From assembly GCA_947168865.1 (NCBI GenBank), contig CAMVNN010000022.1, positions 1-12,180 of the forward strand: 12,180 nucleotides of DNA, given 5' to 3'. The translations under genes and the position numbers were made by a program. Below, piece after piece: positions 259 to 11,580 of the stretch. The DNA is from an uncultured Bacillota bacterium (GTDB lineage Bacteria > Bacillota_I > Bacilli_A > RF39 > UBA660). The notes beneath the pieces were generated by a model. It was not told the DNA's origin. It searched no databases and saw only the letters and a program-made list of their open reading frames with translations. The number at the start of each line of letters is the position of its first letter. Position 1 is the stretch's first letter.

Positions 259-286
259 AAAAGGAGTGATTAATTTCACTCTTTTT
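259..286. terminator. Bidirectional hairpin terminator between the partial gene and lexA
   Basis: An inverted repeat pairs 259-269 with 276-286 (core GGAGTGA against TCACTCT with one G-U pair) around a 6-nt loop. An A-run on the left and a T-run on the right make it work on either strand. It starts two bases after the stop of the upstream gene and overlaps the lexA stop (287-285 on the minus strand). Confidence 0.8.
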
Positions 287-902
287 ATAATTTTCTATAT
301 AATCCAATAGCTTTACCTAATATTGTTACAGTTGGAAATATAAATGGATCCATTGTATCATTTTCTGGTTGCAAGCGAACATATCCATCTTCTTTATAAA
401 ATGTTTTTAAGGTTACTTCGTTTTCTTCAGTCATGGCAACCACAATTTCACCATTATTTGCAACGTTTCTTCTTTCAACTATTACGATATCACCATCAAA
501 TATTCCAGCATTAATCATACTGTCACCTGATACTCTTAAAGTAAATACTTCTTTATTGTTTGGTATCAAATATGCAGGTAATGAAAAATATTCATTTGGA
601 TTTTGAATAGCTTCAATTGGATTTCCGGCTGTTATTTTACCAAGAAGTGGTACTTCAACAATATCTTCACTTTTTTCTTCATATTCATTATCTACCAATA
701 ATTCTATTGCACGATTCTTAGCATCATCTTTCTTAATAAATCCTTTTTCAACCAAATGGCTTAAGTGTGCATGAACAGTTGCAGGTGATGAAATATCAAG
801 AGCACTACCGATTTCACGAACTGTTGGTGGATAACCATGCGATACAATGTAAGATTTAATATAATTTAAGACTTCATTTTGTCTTTTAGTAAGATCGTTC
901 AT
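285..902 (-). CDS. lexA: LexA, SOS-response transcriptional repressor and self-cleaving protease
   Basis: LexA binds SOS operators as a dimer and cuts itself when RecA-ssDNA filaments form, releasing the SOS regulon. From the ATG at 902 the protein is 205 residues, the usual length. Residues 1-65 form the winged-helix DNA-binding domain (it opens MNDLTKRQNEVLNYI). The Ala-Gly cleavage site is A92-G93 in ITAGNPIEA. The S24-peptidase dyad is S128 (in SGDSM) and K166 (in VTLK). A longer reading from 980 would add 26 residues, but it runs back through the -35 and operator, and the 902 start has a strong GGAGGT ribosome site 4 nt upstream. The gene is divergent from a small membrane-protein gene, as lexA and yneA are in Bacillus. 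It is probably autoregulated, since an operator-like palindrome overlaps its -35. Confidence 0.97.
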   Translation of the reverse strand: MNDLTKRQNEVLNYIKSYIVSHGYPPTVREIGSALDISSPATVHAHLSHLVEKGFIKKDDAKNRAIELLVDNEYEEKSEDIVEVPLLGKITAGNPIEAIQNPNEYFSLPAYLIPNNKEVFTLRVSGDSMINAGIFDGDIVIVERRNVANNGEIVVAMTEENEVTLKTFYKEDGYVRLQPENDTMDPFIFPTVTILGKAIGLYRKL

Positions 903-924: not shown

Positions 925-953
925 AGTATAACACCTAAATTGTAAAATGTCAA
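925..953 (-). promoter_or_regulatory. lexA promoter
   Basis: On the minus strand, TTGACA (953-948) is followed after 17 nt by TATACT (930-925). This is close to the sigma-A consensus. The predicted leader to the lexA ATG is about 16 nt. The -35 overlaps the LexA-box-like palindrome at 951-964. Confidence 0.8.
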
Positions 954-964
954 ACATTTGTTTG
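951..964. promoter_or_regulatory. LexA-box-like operator 1 (autoregulation of lexA)
   Basis: The sequence is CAAACATTTGTTTG. The arms CAAAC/GTTTG are perfectly palindromic with a 4-nt centre, and it differs at two positions from the Bacillus-type SOS box CGAACRNRYGTTYG. It covers the start of the lexA -35, so a bound LexA dimer would block lexA transcription. Confidence 0.65.
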
Positions 965-973
965 CAATTTGTA

Positions 974-1002
974 TTGACACGAATAAATGTTCGTGTTAGA
1001 AT
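974..1002 (+). promoter_or_regulatory. Promoter of the SOS small-protein gene
   Basis: A perfect TTGACA (974-979), a 17-nt spacer and TAGAAT (997-1002) form a strong sigma-A-type promoter. The spacer is filled by the LexA-box-like palindrome at 980-993. The predicted leader is about 20 nt. Confidence 0.8.
980..993. promoter_or_regulatory. LexA-box-like operator 2 (small-protein gene)
   Basis: The sequence CGAATAAATGTTCG matches CGAACRNRYGTTYG at every position but one (T for C at position 5). The palindrome extends outward as ACACGAA (977-983) and TTCGTGT (990-996). It lies wholly in the spacer between -35 and -10, where LexA binding would repress tightly. Its centre is 29 bp from that of operator 1. 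Confidence 0.8.
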
Positions 1003-1028
1003 ATAATTGTAAGAAGGAGAGTGAATAT

Positions 1029-1175
1029 ATGAAAGAATTATTTCAAAACAAATTTTTAATAGGAGTAGCAATTGTATTTTGGTTATCACTTTATTTAGTG
1101 GTTGCATTACAAACTAGAGTTGAAGCTCAAAATCAAGAATCCTTCAAGGCTGAGGTAAGCCTTAACGTTAAATAG
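1029..1175 (+). CDS. 48-residue single-span membrane protein, probable SOS-induced YneA/SosA analogue
   Basis: The ATG at 1029 is preceded by AAGGAG (1014-1019); the in-frame ATG at 987 lies inside the operator and promoter, so it is rejected. The 48-residue product has a short N-terminus (MKELFQNK), one strong membrane helix at about residues 9-27, and a polar tail of about 20 residues, probably outside the cell. It has its own promoter with a LexA box in the spacer, a good ribosome site and a hairpin terminator, so it looks like a real single-gene SOS unit. Its place, divergent from lexA and upstream of tkt, is that of yneA in Bacillus and sosA in staphylococci, whose products are membrane-anchored inhibitors of division during SOS. 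It is much shorter than YneA and has no LysM domain. Sequence homology is not demonstrable by eye; the function is inferred from position and regulation. Confidence 0.8.
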   Translation: MKELFQNKFLIGVAIVFWLSLYLVVALQTRVEAQNQESFKAEVSLNVK

Positions 1176-1176
1176 T

Positions 1177-1200
1177 ACTATAGTTAAGCTATAGTTTTTT
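1177..1200 (+). terminator. Hairpin terminator of the SOS small-protein gene
   Basis: ACTATAG (1177-1183) pairs with CTATAGT (1189-1195) around a 5-nt loop, followed by a T-run to 1200. It begins two bases after the stop codon and isolates the small gene from tkt. Confidence 0.75.
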
Positions 1201-1271: not shown

Positions 1272-3260
1272 ATGGATCGTGAAATTATAAACAATTTAAA
1301 ATGCTTGGCTTTAGATATGATTAATCGTGCTGGTTCTGGACATTCTGGGATTGTAATGAGTGCAGCACCGCTTATTTATACTATTTATGCTAAACATATG
1401 AATGTTAATGTTAAAGATCCTAATTGGCTTAATCGTGATCGCTTTGTGATGTCTGCAGGACATGGTTCTGCTTTGCTTTATGCACTTCTTCACATGATGG
1501 GTCAAAATATAACAATTGAGGATTTAGAAAATTTTAGAAGATATGGTTATAAGACTCCTGGACATCCAGAAGTTGGTGTAACACCTGGAGTTGATATGTC
1601 AACTGGACCTTTGGGTCAAGGAATGGCAACTGCGGTTGGATTGGCTCTAGCTGAAAAAATGTTAGAAGCGAGATTCAAAATTGGAAAAGAAAAACCACGT
1701 AGTTTATTTAACTATCGTATTTATGCCTTAGTCGGAGATGGCGATATGATGGAAGGTGTTTCATATGAAGCTGCTTCGTTTGCAGCTAATAATGGCTTAA
1801 ACAACTTAATTGTTTTATATGATTCAAATAATGTAACTCTAGATGGAAATAAGAAAATAACTTTCACTGAGAATGTATCAGAACGCTTTCGTGCTATGGG
1901 GTGGCATGTTGAATTTGTCAAAGATGGCAATAGTGTTTCTGAGATAAATGGTGCTATTAATAGATGTAAGCAAGCTATTCGTCCTGGTTTTATTCAAATT
2001 GTTACGACAATTGGTCAAGACACTGATTTAGCAGGGGATCATAAAGTTCATGGTTATGTCTTCAGTGTTGATGAAATAAAGAAAATCAAAGAAAAATTAG
2101 AAATTAAAAATGAACCATTCTATGTTTCTGAACTTGCATCTAATGCTTTAAAAGAAGCTATTAGGACACGCTCAGACAAGAAATATGAAATGTGGGCTCA
2201 AGATTACAAAGAATATGTTAATGAACAACCAGACTTCGATATTCATGAATTAAAAGCAATCTTTGATGAAAATATTGATGTCACATTAACAGAAGAAGTA
2301 TTAAGTTATGTTAAGAATGCTGGTGAAAAACAAGCTCTTAGAGACACTAATCACCAAATAATGCAATATATAGCAAGTAAAGTTCCAAATTTTGTTGGTG
2401 GTTCTGCTGATCTTGCAAGTTCAACTAAGGCTCATATTGATGATGCAAATGATATAAATTATCAAGATTTTTCCGGACGTAACATCAATTTTGGTGTTCG
2501 TGAACATGCGATGGCAGCAATTTTAAATGGACTTGCATTAACTGGATTTAAGCCATTTGGTTCAACATTCTTGACTTTTGCTGATTATTTAAAACCAGCT
2601 ATGAGAATGTCTGCAATGATGCATTTGCCAGTAACTTATATATTTACTCATGACTCTATTAATATAGGTCCAGATGGTCCAACTCATCAGCCAATCGAAC
2701 AATTAGCAATGCTTCGTGCAACACCTAATCTAATGGTTTTTAGGCCTTGCGATGCAAAAGAAATAATTGGTTGCTGGAATAAAATATTACACGACTATAA
2801 ATCACCGGCAGCATTAGTTATTTCCAAAAGTGAAGTCTCAACTTTAAGAAATACAAGTATTGAACTTACTGAAAAAGGGGCATATATTATTCGTAAAGAA
2901 AGAGAACAATTACACGGAATTATAATTGCAACTGGAACTGAAGTACAAACATCTCTATTCATTGCTGAAGAGCTTTATAATCAAGAACATTTAGATATTC
3001 GTGTTGTAAGTATGCCAATTATGGAAGAATTTATTAAGCAACCAGAAGAATATCAAGAATCTGTTCTTCCATTTGGAGTAAAGCGTGTTGTATTTGAGGC
3101 AGGAACAAGTTATGGTTGGCATCAATTTGTATACAACAAAAAGTATTTAATTACACTTGATAACTATGGCATTAGTGGCACTAGAGATGAGGTATTATCT
3201 TATTTCTCATTTATGTATACTGATATTAAAGAAAGAATCAAAGAACTATTTTTGAAATAG
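1272..3260 (+). CDS. tkt: Transketolase
   Basis: This thiamine-diphosphate enzyme moves two-carbon units between sugar phosphates, linking glycolysis with the pentose-phosphate pathway in the cytoplasm. At 662 residues it is full length. Visible family features: H24 in GSGHSG, H64 in SAGHGSALL, H98 in KTPGHPE, GPLGQG at 112-117, the ThDP/Mg motif GDGDMMEG at 155-162 ending in DSNN (184-187), H260 in HKVHG, the catalytic glutamate E411 in FGVREHAM, and D468/H472 in GPDGPTHQP. The C-terminal domain follows. One oddity: the usual HPG.P.G around the first active-site histidine reads HSGIVMS here. It has its own promoter and terminator. The position after the lexA-divergent gene and before a SirA-like gene and yneF matches Bacillus, with yneB and ynzC missing. 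Confidence 0.97.
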   Translation: MDREIINNLKCLALDMINRAGSGHSGIVMSAAPLIYTIYAKHMNVNVKDPNWLNRDRFVMSAGHGSALLYALLHMMGQNITIEDLENFRRYGYKTPGHPEVGVTPGVDMSTGPLGQGMATAVGLALAEKMLEARFKIGKEKPRSLFNYRIYALVGDGDMMEGVSYEAASFAANNGLNNLIVLYDSNNVTLDGNKKITFTENVSERFRAMGWHVEFVKDGNSVSEINGAINRCKQAIRPGFIQIVTTIGQDTDLAGDHKVHGYVFSVDEIKKIKEKLEIKNEPFYVSELASNALKEAIRTRSDKKYEMWAQDYKEYVNEQPDFDIHELKAIFDENIDVTLTEEVLSYVKNAGEKQALRDTNHQIMQYIASKVPNFVGGSADLASSTKAHIDDANDINYQDFSGRNINFGVREHAMAAILNGLALTGFKPFGSTFLTFADYLKPAMRMSAMMHLPVTYIFTHDSINIGPDGPTHQPIEQLAMLRATPNLMVFRPCDAKEIIGCWNKILHDYKSPAALVISKSEVSTLRNTSIELTEKGAYIIRKEREQLHGIIIATGTEVQTSLFIAEELYNQEHLDIRVVSMPIMEEFIKQPEEYQESVLPFGVKRVVFEAGTSYGWHQFVYNKKYLITLDNYGISGTRDEVLSYFSFMYTDIKERIKELFLK

Positions 3261-3316: not shown

Positions 3317-3697
3317 ATGAGAAAGTATTACTTATTTAAGATAAAAGATTTAAAAATAGACTTAAATAAAACATATCTAATTTTAGAAGAATTATTTTAT
3401 TTGAATTCTAATAAATTTAATTATGGAAAAACTATTTTTGAAAATCTTTGTCTTTCATTTAATAAAGAAAAAATAATTGAAAAACTTGGTAGTAATAAAT
3501 TTGTTATAAATGATTTAGAAAATACGATAATAGAAGTAAATAATACTTGTATAATAATTGAGACATCTAAAAACATTACGAAAGCTTTTAAATATCTTAA
3601 TGAGTTAGAAAGTAATATATTTGTAGCTGATTTTGATAATAGAGATTATTTCTTATTAGATGATTTTATTAAGTTGAATTTTAAAATATCAATATGA
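3317..3697 (+). CDS. SirA-like protein (putative DnaA-binding replication inhibitor family)
   Basis: The product is 126 residues, with no membrane span. The ATG at 3317 follows a GGTGAT ribosome site. The gene sits exactly where sirA (yneE) lies in Bacillus, between tkt and yneF. It also resembles SirA as I remember it in two places: the opening RKYYLFKIK followed by a helix LILEELFYL, against the YY..YLIK start and MFELFQDY helix of B. subtilis SirA; and the end AFKYLNELESNIFVADFDNR, against the FF.VL.....FLAFDFN pattern, followed by an aromatic residue. B. subtilis SirA binds domain I of DnaA and blocks new rounds of replication at sporulation. The middle is too divergent to align by eye. 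Length is near the family's (about 148). The call rests on gene order plus weak terminal similarity; any role in this organism is inference. No clear promoter was found; the gap to yneF is 49 nt. Confidence 0.55.
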   Translation: MRKYYLFKIKDLKIDLNKTYLILEELFYLNSNKFNYGKTIFENLCLSFNKEKIIEKLGSNKFVINDLENTIIEVNNTCIIIETSKNITKAFKYLNELESNIFVADFDNRDYFLLDDFIKLNFKISI

Positions 3698-8632: not shown

Positions 8633-10681
8633 ATGGATGTAGATAAAATAGAAAGTATTAAAAAATATGTAAAATATTCTCTTCTATTAATACCGTTAAT
8701 TATAATATTAGTTATTATAAAAGGCTGTGATAATAAGAACTATAGTGAGTTAGAAGATAAAGTAAGAACTGAAGTTTCAAACTATATAAAAGAAAAGAAT
8801 ATAGCTGTAATTAATGAAAGATACATAGAATTAGTTGTATTACCAGAGATAGAAGGATTAGAACTATGTAGTGAAGCAAGTGGAGCTTTAGTTGAAAATC
8901 AAAATGGTAATCTTAAAATAACTCCTTATTTAGAATGTAATGGATATAAAAGTGAAGCAATTAAAAATAAAAGTAAATATGTAACTTTAAATGGTGATAC
9001 AGTAATGTTACTTAATAAAGGAGAAGCTTTTAATGATCCTTTGTATACTTTAAAAAAAGATGCAGATGTTGAAGTTGATGGATATGTTGGTTCTAATGTC
9101 GGAATATATAATATTAAATATAATGTATATGTTGATAATGAACTTAAAGAGACTTTGTATCGTAAGGTAATAGTAACAGATAGTGATAAAACAAGAACTA
9201 TAAGCGGTTTAGAAAATACCGAAGAACCAACATTGATTTTGTATGGCGATACTGAAATAGTCTTGGCAAAAGGGGAAAGATTTGAAGAACCCGGTTATAA
9301 GGCAGTTGACTATGAAGATGGTAAAATAAGTCGTCAGGTTAAAATCGAACCGGCTAAAATTAATACTAATACAGTTGGATCTTATTTGGTAATATATAGT
9401 GTTGAGAACTCTAGAGGAAAATCAGTTTTTAAAACGAGAACTGTAAATGTAGTTATGAGAAAATCTAACTTAAAAATTGAATTAACTAGTACTCCTGGAC
9501 AAGGCAAGACTGTAATTCTAAAATTAAATGTAATTGGAAGTGATTATGAAAGAACAATATTACCTGATAAAGCTGAAACAATATTAAATGAAGTTACATA
9601 TCCAGTAACTGCTAATGGAACTTATACTTTCTTTGTATATGATACTTATGGAAACGTATATAAGAAAGAAATAGTTGTAAGTGAGATTGATAATATACCA
9701 CCTAATGGTACTTGTAAAGCAGTTGTTACTAGTTCTGCTACTAATGTAACTGTTGAAGCTTCTGACAATAAAGGAATAAGTGGATATAACTATGTAGTTG
9801 ATGGTAAATCGAGTGGTTATATCACGAATAGTTCATATGATTCTAGTGGTAAAGCAAGTTCAGTTAAGGTTAAGGTTAAAGACATATCTGGAAACGAAAC
9901 AACTTTACCTTGTGAAATAGAAAATAAGACATTGGTGATTGCATCTGGAAGATGTGGGGCTAGTGATGTTAGTGTTACAGTTAAGACTTGTTATGGTGAT
10001 AAGGTAATAAGATCAAGTATTCCTTTAGAAGAATATTTAATGGGAGTTCTTTATGGTGAAGAAGCTCCTGGAATTAATGATCCAGTTGACTATATAAAAG
10101 CATTTATAATATTTGCTCGTACTTATACATTAGGTAGAATTGGTTATTGGAATGGTCAAAATAAGTCAATTAAGAGTTGCTCAAGTGACCAAAACTGGTG
10201 TGATGTTGATATGGGTTGTTATCGTGATCAAACTCAAGAAATGTTTGATGCATGCATCGATTATGCGGTTAGTTATCCAAGAAAAGACTATACTGCTGAT
10301 ACATGTGCCAATAGAGTAACAACTTTCCCAGGAACAGCAAATGTTTCAAATAAGACATTCTATGTTAATAATCCTGGATGGTGGGGAGCATCATCAGTTA
10401 CTTCTAATCATGTTAGATCTGTATGGCATGGACCAGTATCTGATTCGAAGAAAGAATTTTACAAAAAAATGATTGAAGAAACTGCTGGATTAGTTATATA
10501 TGATGCTAGTGGAAAACCTGCTTCTGTTCATTACTATATGTGCGATGATACTACTAAATCTGATACGTTGTGTCCAAATACAGCTGAGGATCTCGCGAAT
10601 AGTGGATATACGATGGATCAATTGATTGAAGCATACACTCAGAAATATCCGGGTAGAACAATAGATTGTTATAATAGATAA
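8633..10681 (+). CDS. Cell-surface protein: membrane anchor, Ig-like domains, cysteine-rich SpoIID/LytB-like domain
   Basis: The product is 682 residues. An N-terminal helix (about 14-30) anchors it; IIKGC at 28-32 is not a good lipobox. Two DUF5011/Ig-like domains follow at about 117-182 and 200-275 (the second has GDTEIVLAKGERFEEPGY and VGSYLVIYSV), then more beta-rich sequence to about 435. Residues 445-682 are SpoIID/LytB-like: IPLEEYLMGVLYGEEAP with the likely catalytic glutamate E476, AFIIFARTYTL (490-500), and near the end GYTMDQLIEAYTQKYPG. SpoIID is a lytic transglycosylase that cuts peptidoglycan strands lacking stem peptides. The usual late S-Q-x-G-A motif is missing and replaced by a cysteine-bearing stretch (637-647). 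Nine cysteines lie in this domain, eight of them matched in the next gene's product. The substrate is unknown. It has its own promoter and terminator. Confidence 0.85.
   Translation: MDVDKIESIKKYVKYSLLLIPLIIILVIIKGCDNKNYSELEDKVRTEVSNYIKEKNIAVINERYIELVVLPEIEGLELCSEASGALVENQNGNLKITPYLECNGYKSEAIKNKSKYVTLNGDTVMLLNKGEAFNDPLYTLKKDADVEVDGYVGSNVGIYNIKYNVYVDNELKETLYRKVIVTDSDKTRTISGLENTEEPTLILYGDTEIVLAKGERFEEPGYKAVDYEDGKISRQVKIEPAKINTNTVGSYLVIYSVENSRGKSVFKTRTVNVVMRKSNLKIELTSTPGQGKTVILKLNVIGSDYERTILPDKAETILNEVTYPVTANGTYTFFVYDTYGNVYKKEIVVSEIDNIPPNGTCKAVVTSSATNVTVEASDNKGISGYNYVVDGKSSGYITNSSYDSSGKASSVKVKVKDISGNETTLPCEIENKTLVIASGRCGASDVSVTVKTCYGDKVIRSSIPLEEYLMGVLYGEEAPGINDPVDYIKAFIIFARTYTLGRIGYWNGQNKSIKSCSSDQNWCDVDMGCYRDQTQEMFDACIDYAVSYPRKDYTADTCANRVTTFPGTANVSNKTFYVNNPGWWGASSVTSNHVRSVWHGPVSDSKKEFYKKMIEETAGLVIYDASGKPASVHYYMCDDTTKSDTLCPNTAEDLANSGYTMDQLIEAYTQKYPGRTIDCYNR
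10095..10122 (+). repeat. Paralog repeat A, copy 1
   Basis: 28 bases are identical to 10973-11000 in the next gene. They encode the shared KAFIIFAR stretch of the SpoIID-like core, identical even at synonymous positions. Confidence 0.85.
10301..10360 (+). repeat. Paralog repeat B, copy 1
   Basis: 58 of 60 bases match 11188-11247 in the next gene, including an unbroken run of 33 at the right end. It encodes TCANRVTTFPGTANVSNKTF. Flanking codons diverge sharply on both sides. Confidence 0.9.
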
Positions 10682-10755: not shown

Positions 10756-11580
10756 ATGCGAAATATTTATAAAATCCTAATATTTACACTTTTAATATCT
10801 AACATCGTATTACTTAAAAACATTCCCCAAGATGTGAATAATGATATTAAGGTCAATATTAAAACTTGCTTTGGAAATGAAGTAATTAGAAATGATGTTC
10901 CTCTTGAAGACTATTTAGTAGGTGTTTTATATGCTGAAGAAAATCCCACTCTTAAAACAAATAAAGAGTATTTAAAAGCATTTATAATATTTGCTCGTAC
11001 ATATAGTTTAAAAAGAGGAGGATATAAGAATTTAGAATCCAATTTATCAATCAAAAGTTGCTCAAGTGATCAGAATTGGTGTGATTATGAATTAGGTTGT
11101 TATCGTAATCAAACGGATGAAATGTTTAAAAAATGTATTGATTTTTCTTTAAGTAAAAAATCTAAAAAACCGTATTATTCAGCTAAGACATGTGCTAATA
11201 GAGTAACAACTTTTCCAGGAACAGCAAATGTTTCAAATAAGACATTCAAAGTGGATAATCCTAAGTGGCCTAAAAATGTTACTAGCTCTGCAAAATCAAC
11301 TACAATTGTCTCTACATGGAAGAAGAAAGCATCTCTTTCTTATCAAGAATATTTGAAAAGTCTAGTTAAAGAAACAGAGGGACTAGTTTTAAAAAATCAA
11401 AATAATAAGATTTTAACAGTTGGTTATATGGTGTGTAATTCTAATTCTTCTGGCCATATTATGTGTATGAATAAAGCTAAAAAAATGGGCGAAAATGGTT
11501 ATACTTACGAAGATATAATTAAAGCTTTTACTAAGGATTATAAGAATATTAAAATAGAAGACTATCGAAAAAACATTTGA
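10756..11580 (+). CDS. Short secreted or anchored SpoIID/LytB-like protein, paralog of the upstream gene
   Basis: The product is 274 residues. A signal peptide or anchor helix (about 5-21; basic MRNIYK start) is followed within about 10 residues by the SpoIID/LytB-like domain: VPLEDYLVGVLYAEENP (48-64) with the likely catalytic glutamate E61, AFIIFARTYSL (75-85), SIKSCSSDQNWCDYELGCYR (98-117), NRVTTFPGTANVSNKTF (148-164) and a final GYTYEDIIKAFTKDY. There is no Ig-like stalk, so it should act close to the membrane or be released. All eight cysteines (C38, C102, C109, C115, C127, C146, C227, C237) have counterparts in the upstream protein. As there, the late S-Q-x-G-A motif is absent. It has its own promoter and a shared bidirectional terminator. 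A tandem duplication with later loss or gain of the stalk is the simplest origin. Confidence 0.85.
   Translation: MRNIYKILIFTLLISNIVLLKNIPQDVNNDIKVNIKTCFGNEVIRNDVPLEDYLVGVLYAEENPTLKTNKEYLKAFIIFARTYSLKRGGYKNLESNLSIKSCSSDQNWCDYELGCYRNQTDEMFKKCIDFSLSKKSKKPYYSAKTCANRVTTFPGTANVSNKTFKVDNPKWPKNVTSSAKSTTIVSTWKKKASLSYQEYLKSLVKETEGLVLKNQNNKILTVGYMVCNSNSSGHIMCMNKAKKMGENGYTYEDIIKAFTKDYKNIKIEDYRKNI
10973..11000 (+). repeat. Paralog repeat A, copy 2
   Basis: Identical over 28 bases to 10095-10122, in the homologous place and frame of the paralogous gene. Confidence 0.85.
11188..11247 (+). repeat. Paralog repeat B, copy 2
   Basis: Matches 10301-10360 at 58 of 60 bases; the two differences are C/T changes at synonymous positions. 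Confidence 0.9.

Follow-up and report, generated by a model that had tools for sequence, protein, structure and literature searches.

A predicted LexA-controlled membrane microprotein beside lexA in uncultured gut bacteria is a candidate SOS division inhibitor

The short open reading frame (ORF) that diverges from lexA in the DNA analyzed here (12,180 nucleotides, hereafter the window) belongs to a real gene family, which is kept beside lexA across a clade of uncultured gut bacteria. As read from its sequence, it almost certainly encodes a membrane microprotein under LexA control. By analogy with characterized systems we propose, with a probability of about 70%, that the product is an SOS division inhibitor similar to SosA, which would act on the FtsW complex and be cleared by a tail protease.

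The microprotein gene and its locus

The microprotein gene (1029..1175, forward strand) encodes a single-pass protein of 48 aa, MKELFQNKFLIGVAIVFWLSLYLVVALQTRVEAQNQESFKAEVSLNVK, as called from the ORF list, hydropathy, the family alignment, AlphaFold2 and purifying selection. Its most hydrophobic 19-residue stretch, residues 9-27, is charge-free and has a mean Kyte-Doolittle value of 2.66, and both the ORF list and hydropathy agree with the preliminary description of this DNA, which had seen a short ORF with one membrane helix divergent from lexA. The protein would consist of 8 N-terminal residues, a helix at about residues 9-27 and an extracytoplasmic tail of about 21 residues. AlphaFold2 modeled the 48 aa as one helix, residues 2-47, with a pLDDT of at least 90 for 18 residues; the means were 96 and 92 for residues 11-30 and 58 at the end, so confidence is high in the membrane part and low in the tail. 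A longer frame of 62 aa, starting at an ATG at position 987, was dropped because this start sits within the operator, upstream of the -10 element, and the predicted promoter could not make such a product.

The promoter scan placed a -35 element, TTGACA (974..979, forward strand), and a -10 element, TAGAAT, preceded by a TG (997..1002, forward strand), ahead of the gene, with a 17-base spacer and 11 of 12 hexamer positions matched. Most of this spacer is filled by a predicted LexA operator, CGAATAAATGTTCG (980..993), which abuts the -35 element, lies one mismatch from CGAACNNNNGTTCG in the pattern scan and forms part of a palindrome that extends into the flanks CA...TG. A ribosome-binding site, AAGGAG (1014..1019, forward strand), stands 9 bases 5' of the ATG. 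Two earlier observations, a good ribosome site and a consensus promoter with a near-perfect LexA box as its spacer, are thereby confirmed, with the addition that this box is one of two. The second, CAAACATTTGTTTG (951..964; pattern scan), overlaps the -35 element of the lexA promoter (925..953, reverse strand), in which the promoter scan recognized TTGACA (953-948), a 17-base spacer and TATACT. Both promoters are of the sigma-70 type. This second box is weaker than the box at 980-993 and is identical in the closest relative, L102, where the operator is likewise unchanged. The second box is retained at some loci without an adjacent microprotein, such as L029, and it presumably serves the autoregulation of lexA. 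With up to two mismatches allowed, the LexA pattern occurred at 4 sites in the whole window versus 0.87 expected, a number that was reached in 2 of 200 shuffles.

The claim that the gene has its own terminator stood in part. A terminator-like hairpin (1177-1195) followed by six T (1177..1200 in all, forward strand) folds at -6.7 kcal/mol (z -1.9), a stability reached by 9 of 200 shuffles, and a similar sequence lies 3' of the stop codon in L102. The terminator scan of the window, whose rule is three G-C pairs, did not call it, and the evidence that this hairpin acts as a terminator is modest.

Divergent from the microprotein gene, lexA (285..902, reverse strand; 205 aa) was recognized by PF01726 (8.1e-24) and PF00717 (2.5e-33). 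The downstream neighbor of the microprotein gene is the transketolase gene tkt (1272..3260, forward strand; TIGR00232, 2e-215), for which the promoter scan detected a promoter-like site of its own at 1212-1240, and beyond tkt the window carries a 126-aa ORF, a UPF0154 gene (1.3e-30) and a murF-like gene. In Bacillus subtilis, yneA is flanked by lexA and tkt, and yneE (sirA) and yneF (UPF0154) follow farther on. Since the window order lexA-X-tkt-...-UPF0154 matches this region, the microprotein ORF occupies the yneA position, in agreement with the earlier assignment to the YneA/SosA locus.

The 126-aa ORF between tkt and UPF0154 (3317-3697) matches SirA weakly (E 0.11), with no SirA match at 0.01, and is possibly a diverged SirA/YneE. 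A lexA neighbor in L034 matches SirA at 7e-4, under the curated cut-off. Elsewhere in the window, positions 8633-10681 and 10756-11580 encode adjacent SpoIID-domain proteins, the first with surface Ig-like domains, in what is a small-genome clade.

Conservation of the family and selection on the protein

Relatives were taken from species genomes as the best 80 lexA loci by match to the window LexA, a sample that is not random; together with the window this made 81 loci, of which 80 could be assessed, L046 being too short to judge. The strict test for a transmembrane ORF called for an ATG, a ribosome-binding site, a length of 34-60 aa, a hydrophobic helix and a start 100-240 bases from lexA. 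Such an ORF, divergent from lexA, adjoins it in 68 of the 80 loci, compared to 0-2 (mean 0.5) of 80 in 20 dinucleotide-preserving rounds of shuffling; a curated set comprises exactly these 68 loci. Further lexA loci from whole genomes, inspected by eye, showed the ORF in 28 of 31 cases (4 of the 31 from genomes already counted), and among five more distant loci of the clade it was present in three (L148, identical to L080, as well as L151 and L152) and absent from two.

Apart from the protein of the window itself, a single-sequence protein search returned 11 relatives with identities of 77-98%, and a 24-row profile search returned 300 protein clusters at E <= 0.01; among the 120 clusters listed, lengths were 45-67 aa, no Pfam domain was present and the few named ones were called 'hypothetical protein'. 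In total we collected 92 distinct family sequences of 34-57 aa with a median of 48. The preliminary description had found the window protein comparable in size only to very small inhibitors such as SidA, a claim that found no support, as 48 aa is ordinary for the clade. One carrier, L071, is Candidatus Coprovivens, which the account in PMC8035907 places in the GTDB order RF39, and we infer that the whole set of carriers belongs to RF39.

For the analysis of selection, 27 non-overlapping pairs were drawn from 80 candidates, the choice being based on how similar the LexA proteins were (identity 0.86 to <0.998) and not on the ORF. The sums over these pairs gave a pN/pS of 0.43 and a Jukes-Cantor (JC) dN/dS of 0.32 in the real frame, whereas shifted frames of the same pairs gave dN/dS values of 0.92 and 1.47; pN exceeded pS, against the trend, in 2 of the 27 pairs (L104/L114 and L118/L121). 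By part, dN/dS was 0.35 for the N-terminus, 0.29 for the helix and 0.33 for the tail, from which it follows that the microprotein evolves fast yet is constrained over its whole length, tail included; lexA gave 0.05 in the same comparison. Purifying selection on the helix, proposed earlier as a check, was therefore found over the 27 pairs. In the closest relative found, G235 (LexA 94% identical), the ORF aligns without gaps at 67% identity (dN 0.20, dS 0.73), while operator and promoter are identical to those of the window. The small size of the ORF, taken alone, could be read as that of a chance frame in an AT-rich intergenic region; its occurrence at 68 of 80 loci, when shuffles yield 0.5 of 80, together with the dN/dS of 0.32, leaves that reading a negligible probability, and it was rejected.

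The 12 genomes without an adjacent ORF were searched with a profile, along with 6 carriers outside the alignment as positive controls. In 3 of the 12 the gene proved to be displaced, with the box kept in front of it (E 4.8e-13, 2.1e-14 and 1.1e-4). The displaced copies of L052 and L065 lie about 0.9 kb from lexA and have a box; L194, which comes from the same genome as L065, shows a single other long ORF between lexA and the microprotein. The genome of L040 carries its copy elsewhere (G142:C5:13807-13926, L201), next to a neighbor that by eye is MiaB-like, with the box TTGACATAAACAAATGTTCGTGGTAGAAT and 107 bases from box to start, more than at the other loci measured. Thus, the box travels with the gene in those three. 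At 9 of the 80 loci no copy was detected by this search, which overlooks divergent members: it recovered 5 of the 6 positive controls (E 8.7e-12 to 2.4e-8) and missed L026 (best 0.0085, in a 669-aa frame), so the nine remaining genomes may hide some.

These displaced copies also bear on whether the ORF could be a leader, or part of a regulatory RNA, for tkt, as its place upstream of tkt in the window would allow. By eye, the gene 3' of the microprotein differs among loci (tkt, UPF0154-like, polA-like and others), and a leader was ruled out on these changing neighbors and on the persistence of the copies that were displaced. Selection on the protein frame, the hairpin that the ORF has for itself and the promoter-like site of tkt speak in the same direction, and we regard a leader function as highly improbable.

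Across the 92 members, the part before the helix has a median of 8 residues, is net positive in 83 and often reads MKExLK[NS]K. In 87 members, among them the window protein, the helix core of 17 residues bears no charge. The tail (median 21 residues, net -1) is charged in a stretch that follows the helix, and its C-terminal end repeatedly shows [IV]-x-[IM]-N-x-K, with N in the N column in 53 members. The N-terminus is more positive than the tail in 77 members, and a single helix is predicted. A search for one conserved helix face gave p values of 0.80, 0.56 and 0.26 by permutation (two groups and all members), with no periodicity and no partner-binding face, and a shared transmembrane motif, [FYL]x5Gx4[SNAC], is not claimed since it occurs in only 37 of 92.

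The window protein had no match in Pfam and none among NCBIfam families up to E 1; PHROGs searches with three members gave nothing below 0.18, a profile search of solved structures gave no match (best E 0.61), and 22 pattern matches in viral contigs included no relative. LysM was found in none of the 28 members scanned, the longest of the 92 members being 57 aa, and none of the clade members examined showed a LysM form, in line with the earlier view that this domain is absent, whether lost or never acquired.

Among other Bacilli (L134-L147), 3 of 14 loci (L137, L141 and L142) have a different-looking single-helix ORF with LexA-type boxes beside lexA. This ORF (57 aa in L142) stands, by eye, between lexA and a DUF896-like gene and is unlike the RF39 family; the L141 and L142 versions share the end FKPQxIIPFLEVIAYQxK, and a protein search returned 12 unnamed clusters. 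Short LysM-free versions may be more widespread.

LexA boxes across loci and genomes

All assessable loci were scored for boxes that match at 8 or more of 10 positions. The 68 ORF-bearing loci had two or more in 44 cases, one in 22 and none in 2; the 12 ORF-less loci had two in no case, one in 5 and none in 7; and shuffled loci had a mean of 1.15 of 80. Such a box lies at most 70 bases before the ATG, as the predicted operator, in 64 of the 68 ORF-bearing loci, and the remaining four show TTGAC plus a half-site (L021, L041 and L050) or neither (L048). The distance from box to ATG has a median of 33, and in 56 of 66 loci the box closest to the ATG is overlapped or directly adjoined by a TTGA(C/A) element. 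A conserved short ORF by lexA with a LexA box, for which the preliminary description had recommended a search, is thus present, and the opposite of a box kept and an ORF lost was found: the ORF is conserved, and no second box occurs where the ORF is absent from the lexA flank. The box in the promoter spacer of the window and the conserved boxes in its relatives both support the LexA-type control that had been postulated.

At the genome level, the looser pattern CRAACNNNNGTTYG occurred 3, 8, 8, 8, 8 and 6 times in G235, G002, G010, G005, G006 and G001, and its reversed control 2, 1, 2, 4, 1 and 0 times in the same order, so that G235, the closest relative, shows no clear excess (3 versus 2). 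The stricter CGAAYNNNNGTTCG had a single match, at the microprotein ORF, in the assemblies of G235, G002 and G010, and CGAACNNNNGTTCG had its sole match there in G005 and G001 and matched it as one of three sites in G006. The microprotein operator is accordingly the only strict match in 5 of these 6 genomes, whose assemblies may be incomplete. That the microprotein usually owns the best box fits a gene that has to be kept off. Box quality is, however, reported not to have predicted the timing of induction in Caulobacter (PMC12700426).

Boxes also stand before recA at L177, L182 and L190 (NCBIfam), before uvrA at L179 (NCBIfam) and at L180, L188 and L192 (76-78% identical to the L179 uvrA), and before genes for DNA polymerase IV, recG, thymidylate synthase and anaerobic ribonucleotide reductase, named by their best NCBIfam matches; several of these NCBIfam matches are under the curated cut-off, some because the locus end cuts the ORF. 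As the same kind of box precedes recA, uvrA and the others, the box of the microprotein is the SOS box of the clade, and the genes that share it make up an SOS regulon. The named sites come from five genomes other than G235; in G235 itself, searches at site L174 matched no named gene, and recA was not found in three loci checked around looser box matches. Supply of nucleotides would seem to belong to this regulon, as indicated by boxes at L175, L181 and L185 ahead of genes for thymidylate synthase and for anaerobic ribonucleotide reductase, the latter identified by NCBIfam at L181 and by eye at L175. The remaining fetched sites (L178, L183, L184 and L186) lie before unnamed genes or have no gene start nearby, with strong LexA-type boxes at position 1493 of L178, before a 295-aa ORF, and at position 1526 of L184, before a 321-aa ORF.

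Proposed function and comparison with known systems

LexA-adjacent single-helix proteins of Bacillus, Listeria, Staphylococcus, Mycobacterium and Corynebacterium are reported to inhibit division, and adjacency to lexA is described as common to the characterized Gram-positive inhibitors (PMC6851548). By this analogy, the microprotein is quite probably a division inhibitor, and the chances that it acts on FtsW or its partners we hold to be evenly balanced. In the proposed mechanism, LexA bound at 980-993 would block the microprotein promoter, a step to which the sequence points strongly; upon DNA damage LexA would be cleaved and the 48-aa protein made, which to judge from its charge would insert with the basic N-terminus inside and the tail outside. 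As modeled on YneA, SosA and SidA, the helix would bind the septal cell-wall synthase, most likely FtsW, and the short tail would hold septum synthesis off. Division would pause while DNA is repaired, synthesis of the microprotein would end once LexA returns, and a CtpA-type tail protease would clear what had been made. Possible partners are encoded in the clade: FtsZ is found in 89 of 97 genomes and the CtpA family, over its cut-off, in 85 of 97; the FtsW/RodA family is present in all 8 genomes tried, with 2-4 FTSW/RODA/SPOVE-family matches per genome.

The helix of YneA is reported to bind transmembrane segment 7 (TM7) of FtsW and to suffice for reaching it, LysM being needed to stop wall synthesis and YneA without LysM failing to inhibit; in the same account, AlphaFold 3 models that its authors do not rate as highly confident place SosA, ChiZ and SidA on FtsW TM7 (PMC13396833). 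SosA lacking the greater part of its outer portion is described as inactive, whereas SosA minus its last 10 residues accumulates and has a stronger effect, similar to what is seen in a CtpA mutant (PMC6851548), and CtpA is reported to digest YneA (PMC6051672). Given that both of these truncated proteins, YneA and SosA, fail to inhibit, a tail of about 20 residues must work in another way. Our tentative suggestion, which we think somewhat less likely to be right than wrong, is that a single helix plus some 20 tail residues, with no LysM, suffice for septum arrest in an order-wide, undescribed family, the juxtamembrane charged stretch acting at the mouth of FtsW and the [IV]-x-[IM]-N-x-K motif serving as a handle for CtpA-type removal.

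Two other SOS-induced functions were considered, and we hold both to be unlikely. One is that of a membrane-depolarizing peptide in the style of TisB or HokB, which would cause pores and dormancy, not a septum block. The microprotein resembles TisB in its LexA-type control and small size, and HokB, too, is described as keeping a positively charged N-terminus inside and exposing a negatively charged C-terminus outside (PMC8309996). However, the same source gives TisB four charged residues on one helix face, whereas 87 of the 92 helix cores here have none; a charged amphiphilic helix of the TisB type was therefore rejected for the family, the window core included. Also against a depolarizing peptide, the tail is selected about as strongly as the helix, the gene is a widespread chromosomal one at lexA in the clade, and no Rfam RNA family reached its gathering threshold in the window, in a scan that would miss new or antisense RNAs, so that an antisense RNA of a new kind could be there. 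The other is action on a different membrane target, such as a protease, a transporter or lateral wall synthesis (RodA). With several FTSW/RODA/SPOVE-family matches in each of the 8 genomes, RodA or SpoVE paralogs are possible partners, but the division inhibition reported for characterized lexA-adjacent single-helix proteins of Gram-positive bacteria (PMC6851548) argues for the septum.

If the microprotein is a division inhibitor, the family provides a large natural set (92 sequences; 300 profile clusters) of LysM-free, very short candidate SOS division checkpoints. As the YneA helix alone does not inhibit, a comparison of their tails could show what a minimal inhibitor adds to an FtsW-docking helix. 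The hosts are small-genome uncultured gut bacteria, and a literature search by title and abstract, with subscription papers and preprints outside its coverage, returned no description of their DNA-damage response, no paper combining RF39, the SOS response and LexA, and nothing on this family.

Among known systems, YneA of Bacillus and Listeria likewise lies at this chromosomal place (lexA ... tkt ... yneF in Bacillus), under SOS control and with one N-terminal helix. It differs in its extracellular peptidoglycan-binding LysM domain, reported as needed for inhibition (PMC13396833), which was not found in the microprotein. SosA of Staphylococcus is similarly divergent from lexA, with one helix and no LysM, and is described as having its C-terminus outside and as variable between species, with conservation in a stretch directly behind the helix (PMC6851548). 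Compared by description, SosA has 77 aa versus the 34-57 aa seen here, and its inhibition is demonstrated whereas that of the microprotein is proposed. TisB, an E. coli type I toxin, is also a LexA-controlled small membrane peptide (PMC8309996). Its helix is amphiphilic and charged and its antitoxin is an RNA, in contrast to the uncharged helix and constrained tail of the microprotein. SidA of Caulobacter is again an SOS-induced tiny inner-membrane protein, reported to interact with FtsW (PMC4211646); at 29 aa this alphaproteobacterial protein is smaller than the microprotein, with which it is compared by description and no homology is claimed, and the earlier suggestion that the microprotein could define the smallest functional core of the class has to be withdrawn on that count. 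By sequence, the microproteins appear to form a new family, with no meaningful Pfam, NCBIfam or PHROGs match in the members scanned, and may or may not be distant homologs of YneA and SosA; by function, they are expected to be of a known kind.
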